DNA of 39,544 nt from Nitrososphaerota archaeon. GTDB lineage: Archaea > Thermoproteota > Nitrososphaeria > Nitrososphaerales > Nitrosopumilaceae. The notes beneath the pieces were generated by a model. That model had not been told where the DNA came from, ran no database searches, and saw only the letters and a list, made by a program, of their open reading frames with translations. The translations under genes and the position numbers were made by a program. Numbering within the stretch: the stretch's first letter is position 1; every line of letters begins with the position of its first letter. Below are positions 16,805 through 26,410 of the stretch, piece after piece. Where the stretch lies: contig JAGWGA010000016.1 of the NCBI GenBank assembly GCA_028867675.1, forward strand, positions 1 to 39,544, given 5' to 3'.

Positions 16805-17284
16805 ATGCCCCAAGCTACAATAGAAACCAACTTTGGGAACATTGTTTTTGAACTATTACCAAATTATGCTCCTGAGACCGTAAGGAATTTTGTCAAACTG
16901 GCCAAATCCAATTTTTATGACGGCATACTTTTTCACAGGATAATACCCGGATTCATGATTCAGGGAGGAGATCCAAATACAAAACAATCAGACAAAAGCA
17001 GTTGGGGGATGGGAGGACCGGGATATACTATAAAGGCAGAATTTAATTCCAAACCCCACCAGAGAGGCGTTGTCTCCATGGCAAGGTCAGATGACCCTAA
17101 CAGTGCAGGTTCACAGTTTTTCATCGTAACAGGTGATAGTACTTTCCTTGACGGCCAGTATACAGCGTTTGGCGAGGTAAAGAGTGGCATGGACGTTGCC
17201 GACAAGATCGGTCATCTTCCAAGAGGCAAAAATGATTGCCCCGACCAAGAAGCCAAAATCTTTCGCATAACAATCTCAGAGTAG
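16805..17284 (+). CDS. Cyclophilin-type peptidyl-prolyl cis-trans isomerase
   Basis: It catalyses proline isomerisation during protein folding. The core motifs are FHRIIPGFMIQGGDP (with catalytic Arg), GSQFFIVTGD and LDGQYTAFGEV. It is a 159-residue single domain without signal peptide, so it is cytoplasmic. The Trp that precedes LDG in cyclosporin-sensitive cyclophilins is Phe here (STFLDG), as in many prokaryotic members. It begins after a gap of about 230 nt and does not appear to be in an operon. Confidence 0.95.
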   Translation: MPQATIETNFGNIVFELLPNYAPETVRNFVKLAKSNFYDGILFHRIIPGFMIQGGDPNTKQSDKSSWGMGGPGYTIKAEFNSKPHQRGVVSMARSDDPNSAGSQFFIVTGDSTFLDGQYTAFGEVKSGMDVADKIGHLPRGKNDCPDQEAKIFRITISE

Positions 17285-17346: not shown

Positions 17347-17553
17347 ATGAACGGTAAAAAGATCCTATACTCTACCATAGCATTTTTTGTAATCGCAATG
17401 ATATTCTATGCTGGAACGATGGCGATGAATCTAATATGCACAAGCAATCAAGCAGACACCCATGATCCAAATTGGGTTGACAAATCAGACCTAGTATGTC
17501 AGCTTTTTACCAATCTTGCACAATTGATCAAGCAAGTTACTAATCAAATTTAG
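17347..17553 (+). CDS. Small single-pass membrane protein, 68 aa
   Basis: No known family. An N-terminal positive patch (NGKK) precedes a hydrophobic helix at residues 7-27, then an outside-facing tail with Cys31, an Asp/Asn-rich segment (THDPNWVDKSDLVC, second Cys about 50) and a short amphipathic end. A TATA-like CTTTATAATT lies about 30 nt upstream. The two tail cysteines could form a disulfide (inference). It resembles the 42-residue protein at 28968 in plan: one helix followed by two cysteines. Confidence 0.65.
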   Translation: MNGKKILYSTIAFFVIAMIFYAGTMAMNLICTSNQADTHDPNWVDKSDLVCQLFTNLAQLIKQVTNQI

Positions 17554-17609: not shown

Positions 17610-17670
17610 AGAATAATTCATACCCATTTAGGGAATTGTTCACTAGTTCAATTCCCTAAAAGTTACGGGG
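17610..17670 (+). repeat. Dispersed repeat copy A
   Basis: The segment AGAATAATT...CCCATTTAGGGAATTGTT...AATTCCCTAAA matches copies B (18577) and C (26826) in the same orientation. In copies A and C the flank AGAATAATT and the following GGGGTTCTCTTG-like stretch are also shared. It lies just downstream of a small plus-strand gene. Confidence 0.6.
17627..17660. terminator. Perfect 12-bp stem-loop between convergent genes
   Basis: TTTAGGGAATTG (17627-17638) pairs with CAATTCCCTAAA (17649-17660) across a 10-nt loop. It lies between the stop of the small membrane protein and the stop of the HxlR-type gene, so it could end transcription from both sides. It coincides with dispersed repeat copy A; the other copies have a much less perfect stem. 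Confidence 0.55.
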
Positions 17671-18070
17671 TTCTCTTGGGTTCTTTTCCAAACACTTGTT
17701 TGATCGTTCTTGGTTTTCCATCCTTGAATACATCACAGCTACAATACTGCATTGAAAAGGCAGCCATTTGCATTATGATTGGTTTTAGTGCCTTACCTTT
17801 CTCGGTTACAGAATATTCTATTCTAATTGGAGTTTCATTGTACACTTTTCTTTTTAGAATTCCACTTTTTTCCATCTCTTTTAGCCTGACAGAAAGTGTC
17901 TTTGGATTGATTCCTTCAATTGATTCTAAAAACTGGTTGAATCTGTTTTGGTGAAGAATTGTAATGTTGCGGAGTATGTGTATTGTGAATTTTTTTCCCA
18001 CAATCTTGAATGTATTGTCTACAGGACAACATTTCATTTGATCTGATATTACCTTTAATTCCTGCGGCAT
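17663..18070 (-). CDS. HxlR-family transcriptional regulator with cysteine pairs
   Basis: A winged-helix regulator of the HxlR/YodB/MarR-like class, 135 residues. The family N-terminus CCPVDNTFKIVGKKF (Cys14, Cys15) leads into the DNA-binding region FNQFLESIEGINPKTLSVRLKEMEKSGIL and the wing IRIEYSVTEKGK. Family members such as YodB sense electrophiles or oxidants through the N-terminal Cys before Pro; here Cys15-Pro16 fits, and a second pair (Cys110, Cys112) occurs near the C-terminus. ATG 18070 is used; TTG 18073 adds one residue. It is divergent from a cysteine-rich gene, with an inverted repeat between them. Confidence 0.9.
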   Translation of the reverse strand: MPQELKVISDQMKCCPVDNTFKIVGKKFTIHILRNITILHQNRFNQFLESIEGINPKTLSVRLKEMEKSGILKRKVYNETPIRIEYSVTEKGKALKPIIMQMAAFSMQYCSCDVFKDGKPRTIKQVFGKEPKRTP

Positions 18071-18090
18071 CAACTTACCAAAACCCCATC

Positions 18091-18155
18091 TACTTTCTTC
18101 CTAGTAACTTTCTAATTAATATACTTACCTTTCTATAGTGACTATAAGAAAGTAA
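18091..18155. promoter_or_regulatory. Candidate operator: imperfect palindrome plus extra half-sites
   Basis: TTACCTTTCTATAGT (18125-18139) and ACTATAAGAAAGTAA (18141-18155) form a 15-bp inverted repeat with three mismatches around a central G. Further half-sites TACTTTCTT (18091) and TAACTTTCT (18105) lie on the HxlR side. The palindrome ends two bases before the ATG at 18157, so a bound regulator would block transcription start. A TATA-like TTAATATA is at 18116-18123. Confidence 0.6.
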
Positions 18156-18156
18156 T

Positions 18157-18501
18157 ATGGAATGCAAATCAGGAACATGCAATACAGAAGAAGAACATGC
18201 AACATGTTCATGTGAAAGCTCTGAAATGGAGTGCAATGACTGTGGTTGTGGAACAGTTGATCCTGTGAAAATGTCAATGGAGATGTTACACAAGGCATTT
18301 CACGAAGCAATGTACCAAGCAAAGGTAGAACGACTCAAAAAGAGAATCGATGCCAATTTTGGACCTACATTGGACAAGTCTGCAGATGCAATGATTGAGA
18401 CAGCAACAAAAGTCTGGCAATCAATGCTGATGCAGTCAGAGGGCAAAAAAGAGCTTGAATCAAAGTTGCAAAAGATCTATTCTGAAACAAATAGGAAGTA
18501 A
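18157..18501 (+). CDS. Cysteine-rich N-terminus, helical C-terminus protein, 114 aa
   Basis: No known family is recognised. Seven cysteines fall within the first 31 residues (positions 3, 8, 17, 19, 26, 29, 31) in CxC and CxxCxC patterns, resembling a metal-binding or metallothionein-like tail. Residues about 35-114 are amphipathic and helical (MEMLHKAFHEAMYQAKVERLKKR... TKVWQSML), suggesting an oligomerising or partner-binding domain. It is transcribed away from a cysteine-bearing HxlR regulator through a palindromic region, so metal or redox stress control is likely (inference). The start ATG is fixed by the palindrome and an upstream TATA-like box. Confidence 0.75.
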   Translation: MECKSGTCNTEEEHATCSCESSEMECNDCGCGTVDPVKMSMEMLHKAFHEAMYQAKVERLKKRIDANFGPTLDKSADAMIETATKVWQSMLMQSEGKKELESKLQKIYSETNRK

Positions 18502-18717: not shown

Positions 18718-18873
18718 CTATGGTCTTAAAATTATCAAATTATGCCCATTACGAAGGCATTTGAAATGATTATTGGCAATGATTTCGTTTAATCGTTCCT
18801 CTGAGAAATATTTCTCATTATATCTGCCAAAGTTCTTCTTACAGTCGGAACAGTAAATTTCCTTAAATCCCAT
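18718..18873 (-). CDS. Small zinc-ribbon-like protein, 51 aa, at the end of the Hyf-like operon
   Basis: A short frame with protein-like composition. Cys8 and Cys11 (YCSDCKK) and Cys39 with His44 (KCLRNGH) form a plausible Cys3His zinc site; the middle (YNEKYFSEERLNEI) is helical. ATG 18873 lies inside the last codons of the NuoB-like gene (11-nt overlap), so it would be translationally coupled to the complex. The stop at 18718 is within a small stem-loop. It may be a maturation or regulatory factor for the complex, but this is only inferred from position. Confidence 0.65.
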   Translation of the reverse strand: MGFKEIYCSDCKKNFGRYNEKYFSEERLNEIIANNHFKCLRNGHNLIILRP

Positions 18874-19660
18874 TTTTAATCATTCTATCAACAGCTAGCA
18901 ATAATCCCTGAACCAACACTTGTGGTCTTGGCGGACATCCTGGAATGTATACATCAACTGGAACAACCTTGTCAATCCCACCAGTTGTAGCATATGTGTC
19001 ACCAAATATTCCCCCACTACATGCACAAGCTCCAACAGCAATCACAATTTTTGGATTGGGTGTTGCTTCATAGGTTCGTCGTAAAGCAATTTCCATATTT
19101 CTTGATGCAGGTCCTGTTACAAGTAAGACATCTGCATGTCTTGGTGATGCTACAAAATGAATTCCAAATCTTTCTATATCATAAATTGGATTGTTAAGAG
19201 CAGCAATTTCAATTTCACATCCATTACACGAACCGGCATCAACCTGACGTATTGCAAGTGATCTGCCAAACATTTTTTGAATTTTTTTGTTTAATTCATT
19301 GCCAATTTGTTCATATGGTTTTTCTGTAGATAATTGTGGACTGGAAAAATCAATCAGTTGGTTTCGGGCTTTTGTAGGCATAGCTGGTTTGCTTTTAATT
19401 TCAATTACTTTTGATGCAACTTCATTACAATATCCACACATGATGCATTTGCCATTGTCCAGACCCATTGCATTATTTTCTTTGATTGAAAATAACGCCT
19501 TTGTAGGACAAATGTTCTCAAGAATTTTTTTCTGATCATCTGTCGGGTCTACCTTGAAAACTACACTTCCACGATAATTTTTGCTTTCTAATGAATTAGA
19601 TAAATCCTTGATTGTCTCTACGCCGTTTCCAACTATTCCCTTTCTTGATGCTTTGATCAT
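18863..19660 (-). CDS. HyfI/NuoB-like small subunit with fused N-terminal half-ferredoxin
   Basis: The [4Fe-4S] subunit of a hydrogenase-4/complex-I-like membrane complex, passing electrons to the NuoCD-like subunit. The core (about 130-265) has hydrogenase-type ligands Cys145 and Cys148 (SCNGCEIE), Cys212 (VGACACSGG) and Cys242 (PGCPPRP). Residues 1-95 replace a separate HyfH/NuoI ferredoxin: Cys51-Pro and CIMCGYC (72, 75, 78) make exactly one cluster of a two-cluster ferredoxin, and the eighth cysteine is missing. ATG 19660 overlaps the previous stop as ATGA. It is the last long gene of the operon. Confidence 0.92.
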   Translation of the reverse strand: MIKASRKGIVGNGVETIKDLSNSLESKNYRGSVVFKVDPTDDQKKILENICPTKALFSIKENNAMGLDNGKCIMCGYCNEVASKVIEIKSKPAMPTKARNQLIDFSSPQLSTEKPYEQIGNELNKKIQKMFGRSLAIRQVDAGSCNGCEIEIAALNNPIYDIERFGIHFVASPRHADVLLVTGPASRNMEIALRRTYEATPNPKIVIAVGACACSGGIFGDTYATTGGIDKVVPVDVYIPGCPPRPQVLVQGLLLAVDRMIKNGI

Positions 19661-21267
19661 AGGTCATTCCCCGAATAGGACAGGTCCAGACTTTTATTGA
19701 CTAGAGGAAAGTCAGGTACGATGTCATTTAACACAGCCTGCTCAATGATAGACCAGTTGCAAAATGACGCAGTTCTAACTTTGTACCTAAATATCGAGTT
19801 ATTTTCCCCAATCATGACCCAATGAAGTGTTTGTCCCCTATGAGATTCAGCACATCCAAGTGCTGATCTAAATGGTTCAAGATGCACTGGAATGCTTGTA
19901 AACAGTGCATCATCATCAAGATCAAGCGATTCTCTAATGATGCCAAAGGAATCTTGGACCTCGTTTACACGTATTTCAAATCTAGTCAAGGCATCACCAG
20001 TTCGTTTTTCCATCTCAATTTTGTGTTGCATTAGTTGTTGTGGTGTTTTATGATCGTGTAAAGAATAACTGGCGTAAGGATGATCACGTCTTGTATCAAC
20101 ATCTATTCCTATACATCTAGCAACAACTCCCACCACTCCAAGTTCATGTGCAGTTTTTTTCGGTATGGTACCGGTTCCACGCAATCTGTCCATGAAAGAT
20201 GATTTTGATTTTAGAAGATGGATGATCTTTTCAAAATCATCTGAAATTTCACTTACAGTTTTAAGAATTAATTTCTTATTTTCATCTGTTATGTTACACC
20301 GTACTCCTCCAATTTTATTAACTCCAAAAAGAATGCGACTACCGCTAAGCGATTCATTGAGCTGCATTAGTCTTTCCTTTAGAATGTTTAATCTTGCAGC
20401 ACCGAAAGGAAAACTAGCATCGGTCGATATACCTGCCAAAGTTCCTGCATGATTGTAAATTCGTTCCAACTCTCCAAAAATAGTTCTAATCTTTTTTGCT
20501 CTGTTTGGAATTTCTACTTGCGATATCTTTTCAATTGCTTGACAATACGCAGTTGAATTTGCTACCGACTCATCTCCAGCAATGCGTTCAGATAAAAACA
20601 AGACATCATCAAGTTTCATGGACTCGGCAAGTTTTTCTATTCCTTTATGAGTGTAGAAAAGACGCGTTTCCAGATTGATTATGTTCTCTCCCAAAATACT
20701 AAATCTAAAGTGGCCTGGTTCGATTATTCCAGCATGCACTGGACCAACAGGAATTTCGTTTATTCCCTCACCCTGCACTTTCAAAAATTGGTATTCTTTT
20801 TCTTGTCTTCCTGGCTTTGTCTCAAGTTTGAACCCTTTTCTCAATGGGTATATGCCTTCAGGCCAGTGCTCATGCAAGACTAGAGGCCTTGTATCTGGAT
20901 TTCCAGTTGGAATCAGTCCAAACATGTCTTTTATTTCTCGTTCGTAAAGTGCCGCAGATGGAATTTGTAAGGCAATGCTTGGAAAAGAAAGATCTTGACC
21001 TACAGATACAACTACAAAAATAAAGACATCTTCTTTTTCAAAAACATAGCGAATTACAAAACCGCCACCATTTTTTTGTTTGTCAGAGCAAATTATTGTT
21101 GCAAGTCTTGCATTCAAATTTTTATAAATGTAATCACATATTTTTGGCATGTCATTTAATTCTACGTTGAAATGTATTTCGTCATTGTTCTGGTAAGTCT
21201 TTGTTATCATTTTTGAAAACTTGTCTGTAATTTCGTTTGCATAATTTTCTAAGTTGGTTTTATTCAT
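19657..21267 (-). CDS. HyfG-like fused NuoC-NuoD large subunit without NiFe ligands
   Basis: The peripheral-arm large subunit of the complex. Residues 1-150 are NuoC-like (EIKDMFGLIP, WPEGIYPLRKGF); 170-536 are NuoD/hydrogenase-large-like (GPVHAGIIEPGHFRF at 175-189, DVDTRRDHPYASY). In NiFe hydrogenases two CxxC pairs bind the metal; here the first is ERIAGDES (Ala230, Glu233 at the Cys positions) and the second is SLDLSYSGND (Ser530, Gly533). All four ligands are lost, so hydrogen chemistry is not expected. It looks like an energy-converting hydrogenase-related (Ehr-type) subunit. Four-nt ATGA overlaps join it to both neighbours. Confidence 0.92.
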   Translation of the reverse strand: MNKTNLENYANEITDKFSKMITKTYQNNDEIHFNVELNDMPKICDYIYKNLNARLATIICSDKQKNGGGFVIRYVFEKEDVFIFVVVSVGQDLSFPSIALQIPSAALYEREIKDMFGLIPTGNPDTRPLVLHEHWPEGIYPLRKGFKLETKPGRQEKEYQFLKVQGEGINEIPVGPVHAGIIEPGHFRFSILGENIINLETRLFYTHKGIEKLAESMKLDDVLFLSERIAGDESVANSTAYCQAIEKISQVEIPNRAKKIRTIFGELERIYNHAGTLAGISTDASFPFGAARLNILKERLMQLNESLSGSRILFGVNKIGGVRCNITDENKKLILKTVSEISDDFEKIIHLLKSKSSFMDRLRGTGTIPKKTAHELGVVGVVARCIGIDVDTRRDHPYASYSLHDHKTPQQLMQHKIEMEKRTGDALTRFEIRVNEVQDSFGIIRESLDLDDDALFTSIPVHLEPFRSALGCAESHRGQTLHWVMIGENNSIFRYKVRTASFCNWSIIEQAVLNDIVPDFPLVNKSLDLSYSGNDL

Positions 21268-22757
21268 GCAAAGCCTCCATTACTGATTACAGTTGATGCA
21301 TTTTGTATCAGTGTCTGCAACTGCACCGGTATGTAAATACCAAGAATAACTACAAGTGAACCCAGTATTGCCATTGGAAGTATTGCAAGTTTTCCCATCT
21401 CAGATTTTTTCATTTCTGATGAAGGATCTCCAAAAATCATTTTGATCAAATGTCTTAGAAATACTGCAAATGTTACAACTAAAAATAAAATTACTATTGA
21501 TACTGCAACAAACTGTCCGCTCTTAAAACCTGAACTTAGAATCATAAATTCACTTACGAAAATATTGAACGGCGGCATCCCTACAAGTGCCAGTCCTCCG
21601 ATTAAAAACAAAATACCAGTAATAGGCATCACCTTGATTATTCCGGTTATTTTCGACATTGCTTTTGCATCATATTTTTGGCTGATTGTTCCACTTGCAA
21701 AAAACATCAGGGGTTTTGCCAAGGCGTGATTGATAATCTGAAGTATTGCCCCATAGATTCCAAGTAGACCTCCAAAGCCTATGCCTAGCGATATCAAGCC
21801 CATATGCTCTACACTAGAATAGGCAAGCATCCTTTTCATGTCCTTTTGGAAGTAAATCGATGCTGCTGCTATAACAATAGAAACGACGGCAAGTATGATC
21901 AGGAGTTGGTTTGAAAATCCAGGTCCTATTGCCACGCTGCTTACTATATGAAAGCGAATTATTCCATAAAATGCACAATTCAAAAGCACTCCTGACAAGA
22001 CTGCGCTCACAGGTGTGGGGGCTTCACTGTGTGCATCAGGAAGCCAAGTGTGCATTGGTGCAAGACCAGCTTTTGTTCCAAATCCTACAAGTATGAAAAC
22101 AAATGCAATTTTGACCAAATTGGGATCAAAAAGTTTTGCATTGTGCACCATCCCAGTCCAGTTCATTGCATCTTCAGAAGGATTTGTGTTGATGTTTGCA
22201 TAATAGAAAAATACTGTTCCAATAAGTGCAAAGGAAAGACCGACTGTTGCAATTATCAGATATTTCCATGCAGCTTCAATTGCATTTTCCTTAAAGTAAA
22301 GCATTATCAACAAAACTGATACAAGTGTGGTAGCTTCAACCATCACCCACATTACTCCCAGATTATTTGCAATTGGAACTACAAGCATCGTTAACAAAAA
22401 CACATTGAATCCTTGATAGTATCTTACAATGTGTTTATCATCGACTGTGCCGTTGTCATATTGTCTTCCCATATAATTTTTGGAATATATTGCAGCGACA
22501 AAACCAACAACTGAAATTGAAAGTAGAATTACTGCACTTAACGAATCTACATAGAATGCATTTCCAAATGCAGTGATAGTTTTTTGAGATATTATTCTTG
22601 ATACTACAAAAAGTACCTGAATCAATATCAGAGATGCAGTACAAATTGTTATAGCTCCAATTACTCGTTTCTTTTTCAAGACTGTCACAAGGCATGCCCC
22701 AACTACTGGAGGCAAAAGAAGGAACAGGATTGTTAGATTAGATATGAGAGTGTCCAC
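21264..22757 (-). CDS. HyfF-like proton-pumping membrane subunit (NuoN/MrpD family)
   Basis: A multi-pass antiporter-like subunit, 497 aa with about 14 membrane helices. The pump-channel residues Glu141 (MVEATTLVS) and Lys229 (GFGTKAGLAPMHTWLP) are present, followed by HSEAPTPVSAVLSGVLLN, which is typical of HyfF. It would couple redox energy to ion transport. It starts at GTG 22757, sharing one base with the TAG of the HyfE-like gene (TAGTG), and ends in an ATGA overlap with the NuoCD-like gene. Confidence 0.92.
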   Translation of the reverse strand: MDTLISNLTILFLLLPPVVGACLVTVLKKKRVIGAITICTASLILIQVLFVVSRIISQKTITAFGNAFYVDSLSAVILLSISVVGFVAAIYSKNYMGRQYDNGTVDDKHIVRYYQGFNVFLLTMLVVPIANNLGVMWVMVEATTLVSVLLIMLYFKENAIEAAWKYLIIATVGLSFALIGTVFFYYANINTNPSEDAMNWTGMVHNAKLFDPNLVKIAFVFILVGFGTKAGLAPMHTWLPDAHSEAPTPVSAVLSGVLLNCAFYGIIRFHIVSSVAIGPGFSNQLLIILAVVSIVIAAASIYFQKDMKRMLAYSSVEHMGLISLGIGFGGLLGIYGAILQIINHALAKPLMFFASGTISQKYDAKAMSKITGIIKVMPITGILFLIGGLALVGMPPFNIFVSEFMILSSGFKSGQFVAVSIVILFLVVTFAVFLRHLIKMIFGDPSSEMKKSEMGKLAILPMAILGSLVVILGIYIPVQLQTLIQNASTVISNGGFA

Positions 22758-23431
22758 TAGTCATCCCTCAAATTTTCTAACTTGCCTACATCTAGGCTAT
22801 CAAATGTGCGACTTATCCTGAAAAGAAGTATGGAAGAGATCAAGATACCGACAAGAATATCCACGAATATGCCTATCTCAATTAGCAAAGATACTCCGTG
22901 TGTCAGCGCCATGGCAAAGAGAAATAGGCCATTTTCTATGATCAAAAGTCCTACGACCTGGCTTAGCACGGTCCTTCTGTTTACAAGCACAAACAGTCCG
23001 ATGAAAAACTGAGCCATTGAAACAGGCAGATATGCATTTACAATTTGATCTGACTTGAACGGAATTTGTTGAATAAGAAAGTACGATAGAGCTACAAGTA
23101 GTGCTGAAATTATTACTGATGCACGAATGCTGACATAGGGATTGGTTTCTAGCTTGAATTCAATTTCCAATTTTCTTGTTACATATGTTAGAACTTTGGG
23201 AATGATGATTGATTTTATTACCAGTGTGAGACCAGCTGCAATGTAGATTTCCCAAATTCCTGTCACGTATCCTATGATGGCAGTTACTCCAGAAAGCACA
23301 ATTGATTGGTACCGATATGCGTTTAACCAATCCATGAATCCACGTGTTGCCACAATACCAAATGTAGCTATTAGCAGAATTGCGCCAGAAATTGTCAAAA
23401 TATCAAATTGTATTGTGTCCATAAAAATCAC
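22757..23431 (-). CDS. HyfE-like membrane subunit (MrpC/NuoK-related)
   Basis: A membrane protein of 224 residues with about six helices in the HyfE pattern, longer than NuoK because of N-terminal helices. Segments such as NGLFLFAMALTHG and IGIFVDILVGILI match the NuoK-like core with its buried acidic residue. The gene starts at GTG 23431 using the same TAGTG junction as the next gene; ATG 23422 (MDTIQFD) is an alternative. It occupies the expected place between HyfC- and HyfF-like genes. Confidence 0.88.
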   Translation of the reverse strand: MIFMDTIQFDILTISGAILLIATFGIVATRGFMDWLNAYRYQSIVLSGVTAIIGYVTGIWEIYIAAGLTLVIKSIIIPKVLTYVTRKLEIEFKLETNPYVSIRASVIISALLVALSYFLIQQIPFKSDQIVNAYLPVSMAQFFIGLFVLVNRRTVLSQVVGLLIIENGLFLFAMALTHGVSLLIEIGIFVDILVGILISSILLFRISRTFDSLDVGKLENLRDD

Positions 23432-24372
23432 TAAAGATAACAGAGTACAATTCCTATCATCGAAGTAGCTATTGCTATTGCAATCAGATCAGGGATCCTA
23501 AAGAGTCTCCATTTTGCAACAGAAGATTCTAGAAAAGCAACAAAGATTCCAAATAATGAAATTTTTCCAATAAATGTTAGAAATCCTACTGCAAGAGTTG
23601 ACAACAAAATTGATGATGAGATTCCCCATGGAACAAAGATGTTTATCATTAGTGTGAAAAGTATTATTTGTTTGATGGATTGTGACCATTCCATCAAGGC
23701 AAGGCTTTTACCAGAATATTCTAGAATCATCGTTTCATGAACCATTGTAAGTTCAAGATGAGTAGCAGGATTGTCAAACGGTAACCGGCCTGTCTCACCT
23801 AGTATGATAATGAACAGGCCTATTGCTGCAAAGATGATTTGAGGATGGGGTAAAAATGAAGAGTTGGAAGATGCTGAAATTAGCGTGCTCAGATTTGTTC
23901 CGCCATATGTTATTGCAACAACAAATATACTCAGAAAAAGTGCAGGCTCTAAAAGAGCAGAAATCATCATTTCTCTGCTGCTTCCAAGTCCACCAAAGGA
24001 ACTTGCTACATCAAGACCCGCAAGCATTGTAAAAAATCTACCAAGTGCAAAAAGTCCTATGACAAGAAGAAGATCACCGACTAGTCCAAACGGAGTATAT
24101 GCCAAAAACACTGGAATGAAAAATGCTGCCGTTGTTATTGCTGCAAAGTTAATCCACGGACATGCTCTGAAGATCCAAGATGTTTGGTCGGATATGACTT
24201 CATCCTTTCGTACTAGTTTTAACAGATCATAGTATGGCTGCAAAATACTAGCACCAATTCTTTTTTGTGTTCTTGCCTTTGTTTTTCGTATTATTCCTGT
24301 TAGCAGTGGGGCTAGTACCAGTATGACCAGTACTTGGATCAATCCAATGATGATTGTTATCATATTAAGCAT
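23431..24372 (-). CDS. HyfC/NuoH-like membrane anchor subunit
   Basis: The subunit that docks the peripheral arm to the membrane and forms the quinone-like or ion-path cavity in complex I relatives; 313 residues and about eight helices. The acidic loop ETGRLPFDNPATHLE followed by TMVHETMILEYSG is the hydrogenase-4 version of the NuoH signature. The N-terminal IIRKTKARTQKRIGASILQPYYDLLKL loop is also conserved. ATG 24372 overlaps the HyfB-like stop by 8 nt; ATG 24363 is an alternative three codons in. Confidence 0.92.
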   Translation of the reverse strand: MLNMITIIIGLIQVLVILVLAPLLTGIIRKTKARTQKRIGASILQPYYDLLKLVRKDEVISDQTSWIFRACPWINFAAITTAAFFIPVFLAYTPFGLVGDLLLVIGLFALGRFFTMLAGLDVASSFGGLGSSREMMISALLEPALFLSIFVVAITYGGTNLSTLISASSNSSFLPHPQIIFAAIGLFIIILGETGRLPFDNPATHLELTMVHETMILEYSGKSLALMEWSQSIKQIILFTLMINIFVPWGISSSILLSTLAVGFLTFIGKISLFGIFVAFLESSVAKWRLFRIPDLIAIAIATSMIGIVLCYL

Positions 24373-26410
24373 TGTTGCTTAACCTCACAAACAACAAGAG
24401 TAGAACGAGTGTTATCATGATGTAAAGCAAGTATGCGTTTATTTTTCCGGTCTGAAGCCTGCGCACCTTGTCAAAAAAGAAAACAAATGAAGAAACTATG
24501 GGCGTGTAAAGCACATCTTCGAAAATATTTTTTATCACGGTTTCAACTTTTATGGTTTTTAACAGGTATTGGTTTTCTCCAAAAGATTCTTTCTCAGTTT
24601 GATTGTGCGGCTTGAAAAAAACCTTGAAGACTGCACGTATTGGTTGTGAAAGGGATGTCGGAGTATATTCCATCCTCTCATTGAGGCTACCAAATCCACA
24701 ATCCCAAGTGCCGTACGTAGTTTTCTTGGTATGGCCACCCAATACCCGAATAAAACCAAAGATTGCAATCGATATTGATGACAATATTATAACAACAACA
24801 GGCATGGAAAGATTTGCAAAACTTTTGCCAGAATTATTCTGAACTGATATGAAATCAAGTGGACTTGACGGTTGGAAGGACATGTGAAATGCAGTAGATA
24901 TCAATGATGTACCAAGATATGGTACAACACCAAACAATACACAAACGGCAGCAAGAATTGACATTCCTAAAATCATGCTGCGTGGAACTTCCTTGATGTT
25001 TATGATATTCTCGCTTCTTGTCTTGGAAAGAAATGTCATGCCAAACAGTTTGACAAATGTTGCAGCTGCAATTCCTATTGTCAGTGCAAAAGGTAGACTT
25101 GCAAATGCAATAGAGATTTGAAGTATTGTTGATGGAATGTGATAGCTTGACAGCAAAGCTTGCAGTGTAAACCATTCACTGATGAATCCGTTAAATGGAG
25201 GAAGACCAGAAATTGAAATCGCTCCAATCAAAAATAGCAAGGAGGTCCATGGCATTTGTTTAACAAGACCGCCCAAGTGTTCGATGTTTTTTGTGTGTGT
25301 TACAGATACTACAGAGCCTGCTCCCATAAAGAGCAGGCCTTTGAATACTGCGTGGTTGATTGTGTGATACATACTTGCCACCAATGCAAGTACGGCAAAT
25401 GCAGTAAGATTGAATGATGTAAAAACTACAGACAGTCCAAGGCCTATCAGTATTATCCCAATGTTTTCTATACTGGAAAAGGCAAGGGCTCGCTTGATGT
25501 CTCGTTCCACTACAGCATACAGGACTCCTATTATGGCCGATGCAGAGCCAAAAGCGACCAATAGCATTCCCCACCATGCAAAATCAGGAGAAGCCCCAAA
25601 TCCGCTAAAATCAAAAATCGTTCTTATCATTCCATATATGCCAATTTTTATCATAACTGCTGACATGAGAGCAGAGATGTTACTAGGTGCAGATGGATGA
25701 GCTTTTGGTAACCAGACATGCAATGGTACCATTCCTGCCTTTGTTCCAAATCCAATAAATGCAAAAACAAATACAAGATTTTTTACAAGTAAGGGAAAAC
25801 CTGTGGAACCATGACGAAATGAATCAAAACTAAAGTTTCCAGTTTGGATATAACCTAGCAAAAATGATGCAAAGATAAACGCGGTTCCAAGGTGTGTCAT
25901 TACAAGGTAAGTCATTCCAGACTTGAGATTTTCTTCTTTATCATGATCATAAATTACCAAGAAGAATGATACCAATGACATCAATTCCCAAAATATTAAA
26001 AAGAAAAACGAGTTGTTAGATGAAACTACAAGAATCATTGACAAGATAAAAATATTAAAAAGAAATCCAAAAGCCGACATTCTTTTTTTGATTTCATATT
26101 CCTTTGAATATCCAATAGAGTATAATGAAACAGCAAATGACACCAGTCCAATTATCAACATGAAGAACGCGGATATTCCATCAACAAGGATTTCAAGATC
26201 AAAGAAGGGAAGTATGTGTGGTACAGTCAACTTTAATGGCGTACCCGTTATGATACCAATTGAAAATACAATTGTAAAAATTGAACCAATCATTGAAGGA
26301 ACAAATATCATCAGTCGTGCTAGTCGGCTATTTCGTGATAGCAGGCCAGATAATGCTCCTATTACGAAGAGTAGGATTGGAATTTGAAATAAAACAAGAT
26401 TACTAATCAT
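24365..26410 (-). CDS. HyfB-like proton-pumping membrane subunit (NuoL/HycC family)
   Basis: The first gene of the operon, 681 aa. Antiporter-like core residues Glu142 (FWELMSLVSF) and Lys224 (FGTKAGMVPLHVWLP) are intact, with HPSAPSNISALMS after them. The C-terminal part has TWDCGFG, a signature of HycC/HyfB proteins, and a final membrane helix (YLLYIMITLVLLLLF). With the HyfF-like subunit the complex has two pump modules; no HyfD equivalent is present. The promoter lies in the gap before 26552, but I cannot pin its TATA box. Confidence 0.93.
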   Translation of the reverse strand: MISNLVLFQIPILLFVIGALSGLLSRNSRLARLMIFVPSMIGSIFTIVFSIGIITGTPLKLTVPHILPFFDLEILVDGISAFFMLIIGLVSFAVSLYSIGYSKEYEIKKRMSAFGFLFNIFILSMILVVSSNNSFFFLIFWELMSLVSFFLVIYDHDKEENLKSGMTYLVMTHLGTAFIFASFLLGYIQTGNFSFDSFRHGSTGFPLLVKNLVFVFAFIGFGTKAGMVPLHVWLPKAHPSAPSNISALMSAVMIKIGIYGMIRTIFDFSGFGASPDFAWWGMLLVAFGSASAIIGVLYAVVERDIKRALAFSSIENIGIILIGLGLSVVFTSFNLTAFAVLALVASMYHTINHAVFKGLLFMGAGSVVSVTHTKNIEHLGGLVKQMPWTSLLFLIGAISISGLPPFNGFISEWFTLQALLSSYHIPSTILQISIAFASLPFALTIGIAAATFVKLFGMTFLSKTRSENIINIKEVPRSMILGMSILAAVCVLFGVVPYLGTSLISTAFHMSFQPSSPLDFISVQNNSGKSFANLSMPVVVIILSSISIAIFGFIRVLGGHTKKTTYGTWDCGFGSLNERMEYTPTSLSQPIRAVFKVFFKPHNQTEKESFGENQYLLKTIKVETVIKNIFEDVLYTPIVSSFVFFFDKVRRLQTGKINAYLLYIMITLVLLLLFVRLSNNA

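Follow-up and report, generated by a model that had tools for sequence, protein, structure and literature searches.

What signal would a thiol-type regulator answer when it is encoded back to back with a small cysteine-rich protein in an ammonia-oxidizing archaeon, and what would its partner do? The pair examined here lies in a 39,544-nucleotide stretch of DNA (the window), which forms contig 77 in a draft genome of 1.74 Mb that is 97% complete. The locus of the cysteine-rich protein (CRP) has Candidatus Nitrosotalea species, including N. devanaterra, as its nearest named relatives, which identifies the source as an ammonia-oxidizing thaumarchaeon of Nitrosotalea type. The regulator, of the HxlR/DUF24 family (MarR-like winged helix), is encoded on the minus strand at 17663-18070 (135 aa, with its ATG at 18070; an alternative TTG start at 18073 would give 136 aa, 17663-18073). 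The CRP, an unnamed protein of 114 aa, is encoded on the plus strand at 18157-18501, and the two genes diverge across 86 nt. The locus is real and conserved and very probably regulatory, and on balance it seems to hold a divergent regulator-effector pair with which ammonia-oxidizing archaea respond to thiol (redox/electrophile) stress.

The HxlR family model (PF01638) matches residues 24-112 of the regulator with an E-value of 3e-23 (81.9 bits against a cut-off of 20.8). The best solved relatives are YodB (1e-16) and YybR (HypR; 2e-16), with YdzF, HxlR and QsrR also among the closest, and the regulator falls outside the NCBIfam families RrpB (59.9 versus 175 bits) and RrpA (49.7 versus 185 bits). 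As the first-pass annotation had reported, the protein carries a Cys-Pro near its N-terminus (Cys14-Cys15-Pro16) and two cysteines near its C-terminus (Cys110/Cys112). The first feature is invariant, Cys15-Pro16 preceding the first helix in 45/45 CRP-linked orthologs; the C-terminal cysteines, in contrast, are not a conserved unit, with Cys110 kept in 33/45 CRP-linked regulators (replaced by Tyr in 12/45, and absent from the regulators of genus g15, here labeled Nitrosopumilus-type as a guess) and Cys112 in just 7/45. A conserved metal site at this pair was ruled out because Cys112 is not conserved. By analogy, the regulator would most likely work like the YodB/QsrR thiol switches, with Cys15/Cys110 chemistry as in those proteins being possible.

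The pairing itself extends well beyond the window. Family-level counts were taken over 250 family genomes, of which 60 contain the CRP family and 76 the regulator subfamily, the latter in a patchy distribution; the window's genome has one gene of each. The regulator lies within 500 nt of the CRP gene in 45 of the 60 tabulated family CRP loci (35 divergent and 10 on the same strand), most of the divergent pairs having 87-93 nt between matches, and the divergent layout is found again in two other families of the order, f3 and f5 (L076, L080, L081, L082, L084-L086). The two genes thus came strongly through the refutation test set in the first-pass annotation, which was whether they are neighbors in relatives, and the reading of the locus as a thiol-type HxlR regulator facing a cysteine-rich protein across a candidate operator is supported. 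CRP and regulator distances are correlated (Mantel r 0.66, 0/2000 permutations), a correlation that shared species history explains in part.

Fifteen CRP loci have no adjacent regulator; eight of these hold a His-rich paralog (L047-L054), and some lie near contig ends. In an alternative reading, the CRP is no end effector but itself a redox-sensing co-regulator or feedback partner, for example a zinc-Cys protein able to bind the regulator or the linked TFB paralog and reset the switch. Its small size, its lack of an enzymatic domain and the predicted long helix that bears its Cys head would suit such a role, as would its persistence beside a regulator that in relatives often adjoins a TFB paralog. 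However, L002, L003 and L008 keep the CRP and the operator with no adjacent regulator (a regulator relative is encoded elsewhere in those genomes), and some genomes without the CRP still have regulator paralogs; we regard the co-regulator role as quite unlikely.

In the spacer, the proposed main operator is a 31-bp imperfect palindrome, TTACCTTTCTATAGT-G-ACTATAAGAAAGTAA, at 18125-18155, whose arms (18125-18139/18141-18155) pair at 12/15 positions (80%) and whose 3' limit is one base before the CRP ATG. The 15-bp inverted repeat noted earlier is therefore present in imperfect form, and so are the two extra half-sites noted with it: TACTTTCTT at 18091-18099, which is partly conserved, and TAACTTTCT at 18105-18113, which is conserved. 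To these is added a third, CAACTTACC at 18071-18079, which abuts the regulator start, is conserved across families and may be a further half-site or a 5' UTR element. Between the half-sites lies an A/T-rich TATA-like block (18113-18122), at which ATTTATATA/ATTTAAATA is kept across genera and which probably serves one or both of the divergent promoters; a sigma-70 promoter scan was set aside as not applicable to an archaeon.

The chance of finding the palindrome in an 83-nt spacer is about P = 0.003, but the window contains three 12/15 repeats of the same geometry, compared to one to five per simulated window. Symmetry was therefore rejected as sole evidence, since a window this long yields such repeats by chance. 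Conservation, which the first-pass annotation had proposed to check, is decisive: among 12 loci whose spacers are also 86 nt long, no change is seen at 24/31 columns of the palindrome and 57/86 of the spacer, compared to 4/54 third-codon positions of the regulator. In addition, the 34-mer TACTTACCTTTCTATAGTNACTATAAGAAAGTAA, allowing up to three mismatches, occurs in 38 of the 250 family genomes, mostly once each (0 for the reversed control), at sites that adjoin a CRP gene or a regulator gene of this subfamily. Because its conservation exceeds that of silent coding positions and the 34-mer recurs, the palindrome stands above chance. A looser pattern gave 32 sites in the genus, compared to 6 with the control, and 31 of the 32 adjoin the CRP or this regulator subfamily; a stray loose site in genome G203, in the 3'-terminal part of a cysteine desulfurase gene, was taken as chance. 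No second operator was found in the window's genome. The operator is conserved across families, with CTTTC/CTTAC half-sites toward the regulator.

It is highly likely that the regulator binds this candidate operator. The alternative that the spacer serves another factor, the HxlR regulator being merely co-regulated, would account for the CRP loci that keep the operator with no adjacent regulator, but the operator tracks the regulator gene too: it lies upstream of Nitrosopumilus-type regulators and of regulator paralogs that have no adjoining CRP (L104, L105, L092, L102), which is a common pattern of autoregulation and leaves the other-factor explanation very unlikely. Since the TATA-like block and the CRP start flank the operator, which also precedes regulator genes, repression with autoregulation is expected, and we consider it likely that the CRP gene is repressed rather than activated, although HxlR-family proteins can also activate (HypR, HxlR). 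That the palindrome acts as a 5' UTR hairpin in RNA, and not as a DNA operator, is suggested by its end adjoining the CRP start codon; however, its folding is no better than that of shuffled sequences (z -0.01), regulator genes are preceded by the same element in reverse orientation, and the start point expected from the TATA-like block falls within the palindrome, so that an RNA role is extremely improbable.

The CRP has cysteines at positions 3, 8, 17, 19, 26, 29 and 31, in agreement with the seven in the first 31 residues counted earlier, and none in its C-terminal 80 aa. Most regulator-linked CRPs likewise have 6-8 cysteines, followed by a helical part of 80 residues in which cysteine is almost never present. 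No Pfam or NCBIfam family matched the window CRP above cut-off, and below-cut-off Pfam matches to SurA_N_2 and GCSF were discarded as helical chance matches. Two AlphaFold runs on the CRP were weak (pLDDT 56 and 74, pTM 0.25 and 0.35) and modeled nothing beyond a long C-terminal helix, while the CRP alignment, searched as a profile against solved structures, returned one meaningless match (E 0.66). A search of 300 genomes from across the phylum gave no CRP outside the order, and none was found in viral contigs, leaving a viral origin unsupported. As far as searched, the CRP is a new family restricted to the ammonia-oxidizing order. Nitrosopumilus-type loci also contain a conserved 47-codon ORF, ending in ...TLTLLQRPGGEMYGM, that overlaps the CRP start (L061:2830-2973, L055:2919-3062, L063:3403-3546) and could encode a leader peptide or else a small protein.

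The composition of the CRP raises the possibility of metal homeostasis, in which the regulator would sense Cu/Zn through its cysteines and the CRP would be a metallothionein-like or SEC-C-type metal store. The CRP Cys count is nearly constant at seven, sister genera carry a SEC-C-like motif, and the loci L047-L054 encode His-rich CRP paralogs with Cys-Gly-Cys and Ser-His-Glu-His repeats, yet these paralogs, the most metal-like of the family, have neither regulator nor operator. Furthermore, the sole invariant regulator cysteine is the electrophile-sensing one of its family, and the neighbors read are redox enzymes, with no gene for a metal transporter, a P-type ATPase or a known metal chaperone seen among them. 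The cysteine content of the CRP is the sole positive evidence for metal responsiveness, and a metal-homeostasis role is unlikely. Redox/electrophile sensing is favored over metal sensing because relatives of the regulator, and CRP loci without it, adjoin genes for flavin reductases (azo/quinone-type), for nitroreductase, pirin and thioredoxin, and for a TFB paralog, and the inducer is more probably than otherwise a thiol-reactive or electrophilic compound.

At L094, L102 and L017/L038, a regulator paralog faces a divergent gene for a Flavodoxin_2-family reductase, and at L033 a regulator-TFB-reductase (Flavodoxin_2) gene run is divergent from the CRP. At two loci (L008:2037-2624, L031:4327-4737), an NADPH-dependent FMN reductase (FMN_red) occupies the regulator's slot facing the CRP, and the operator is still present. 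Other loci in relatives encode pirin, thioredoxin, nitroreductase, a DsbA-like protein, SOD or DoxX nearby. These neighbors are raw occurrences at the loci read, and the strongest evidence among them is the repeated slot replacement under the same operator. In the window itself no reductase adjoins the regulator or operator, such reductases being seen only in relatives.

A TFB (TFIIB-like) paralog also follows or accompanies regulators of the same subfamily, in many cases together with pirin or a flavin reductase (L033:2814-4917, L089:725-2897, L092:2947-3963, L104:2652-4851, L038:2702-4898). The arrangement suggests that Nitrosotalea relatives have a basal transcription factor dedicated to stress. 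The first-pass description of the pair as self-contained fits the window's genome, which has one operator, one regulator and one CRP gene, but it does not extend to relatives, in which the regulator and operator are tied to redox genes and TFB; the pair therefore fits better as a single branch within a redox/electrophile regulon. A wider thiol-stress regulon of ammonia-oxidizing archaea, consisting of an HxlR switch, a near-invariant operator and, as its core output, an order-specific zinc/thiol family, with a dedicated TFB paralog in some lineages, is a speculative and somewhat doubtful extension. If true, an electrophile signal would alter the basal transcription machinery.

Other genes flank the pair in the window. 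A cyclophilin gene (16805-17284) flanks the regulator, and at L047 a His-rich CRP paralog comes after the same cyclophilin gene. Between the cyclophilin and regulator genes lies a 68-aa ORF (17347-17553, plus strand) with one likely membrane segment and no family match. A cluster resembling complex I or membrane hydrogenases according to Pfam (18863-26410) encodes a NuoB-like protein with a ferredoxin part, a fused 30/49 kDa subunit, two antiporter subunits and NuoH-/NuoK-like proteins. It looks like a non-hydrogenase complex, since its large subunit has RIAGDES in place of the hydrogenase RxCGxC and has no C-terminal CxxC.

Under the favored regulator-effector reading, a dimer of the HxlR-family regulator would bind the 31-bp palindrome and the half-sites on its own side and, in the resting state, would repress both the CRP gene and its own. 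An electrophile (a quinone, an aldehyde or another reactive compound) would alkylate or oxidize Cys15, possibly leading to an intersubunit bond to Cys110, and the modified dimer would leave the DNA so that CRP and regulator are produced. The CRP, a Cys cluster on a helical stalk, would then act as a zinc- and thiol-binding buffer or as a redox-sensitive scaffold; this pair of roles is our best guess at its function and a tentative one, and the buffer role taken by itself is likewise held at less than even confidence. In some relatives, flavin reductases or pirin encoded beside the same operator would carry out detoxification. Ammonia-oxidizing archaea are abundant and exposed to reactive nitrogen and oxygen species, and no redox regulator of this type was described for them in the literature searched. 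The pair offers a first testable view of a possible response of these archaea to reactive chemicals, and with one short operator and one target gene, the binding, the inducer and the function of the Cys-rich family are all directly testable. In addition, the TFB link in relatives hints at the purpose of some of the many thaumarchaeal TFBs.

Several known systems resemble parts of this locus. The CRP is like metallothioneins in being small with clustered cysteines; a very high Cys content is the yardstick for metallothioneins, however, and the CRP has 7 Cys in 114 aa in one cluster, a long helical C-terminal part and no family match. The SEC-C zinc motif (PF02810; SecA C-terminus, YchJ-type proteins), with the pattern C-x-C-x8-C-[CH], is approached by the Cys region of sister-genus CRPs (CACGSxKSYxxCCGC, containing CxCGSxKSYxxCCG), but every individually scored CRP is below the Pfam cut-off (16.1-19.6 versus 20.4 bits for relatives, with a best E-value within the family of 1.7e-4), and the window CRP has no match, its pattern being degenerate (C-x-C-x6-C-x2-C-x-C). 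HypR/YybR of B. subtilis belongs to the regulator's family, and its Cys14 aligns with the Cys-Pro described here; HypR is an activator, whereas the position of the candidate operator between the TATA-like block and start codon suggests repression. The first-pass statement that the pair cannot be matched to a described system was too strong, because the regulator's family includes YodB, QsrR, HypR and CatR. The closest likeness is to the thiol-switch repressors YodB/CatR (Bacillus subtilis) and QsrR (Staphylococcus aureus), which share the Pfam family and the N-terminal Cys-Pro. Cys6 of YodB makes intersubunit disulfides with Cys101 or Cys108, and quinones alkylate Cys5 of QsrR (PMC6798810; PMC10458429), the N-terminal Cys being involved in QsrR-type sensing (PMC6798810). 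The regulator's Cys110 aligns at the YodB Cys101 position, the operator adjoins its gene, and relatives lie near flavin and nitro reductases, azoreductase and nitroreductase being members of the YodB and QsrR regulons (PMC6798810; PMC6943732). Unlike those repressors, the present system is archaeal, has about one operator per genome, includes members with no C-terminal Cys, and has as its main conserved target an undescribed Cys-rich protein and not a reductase. New here are the CRP partner family and an archaeal, order-wide, near-invariant candidate operator.
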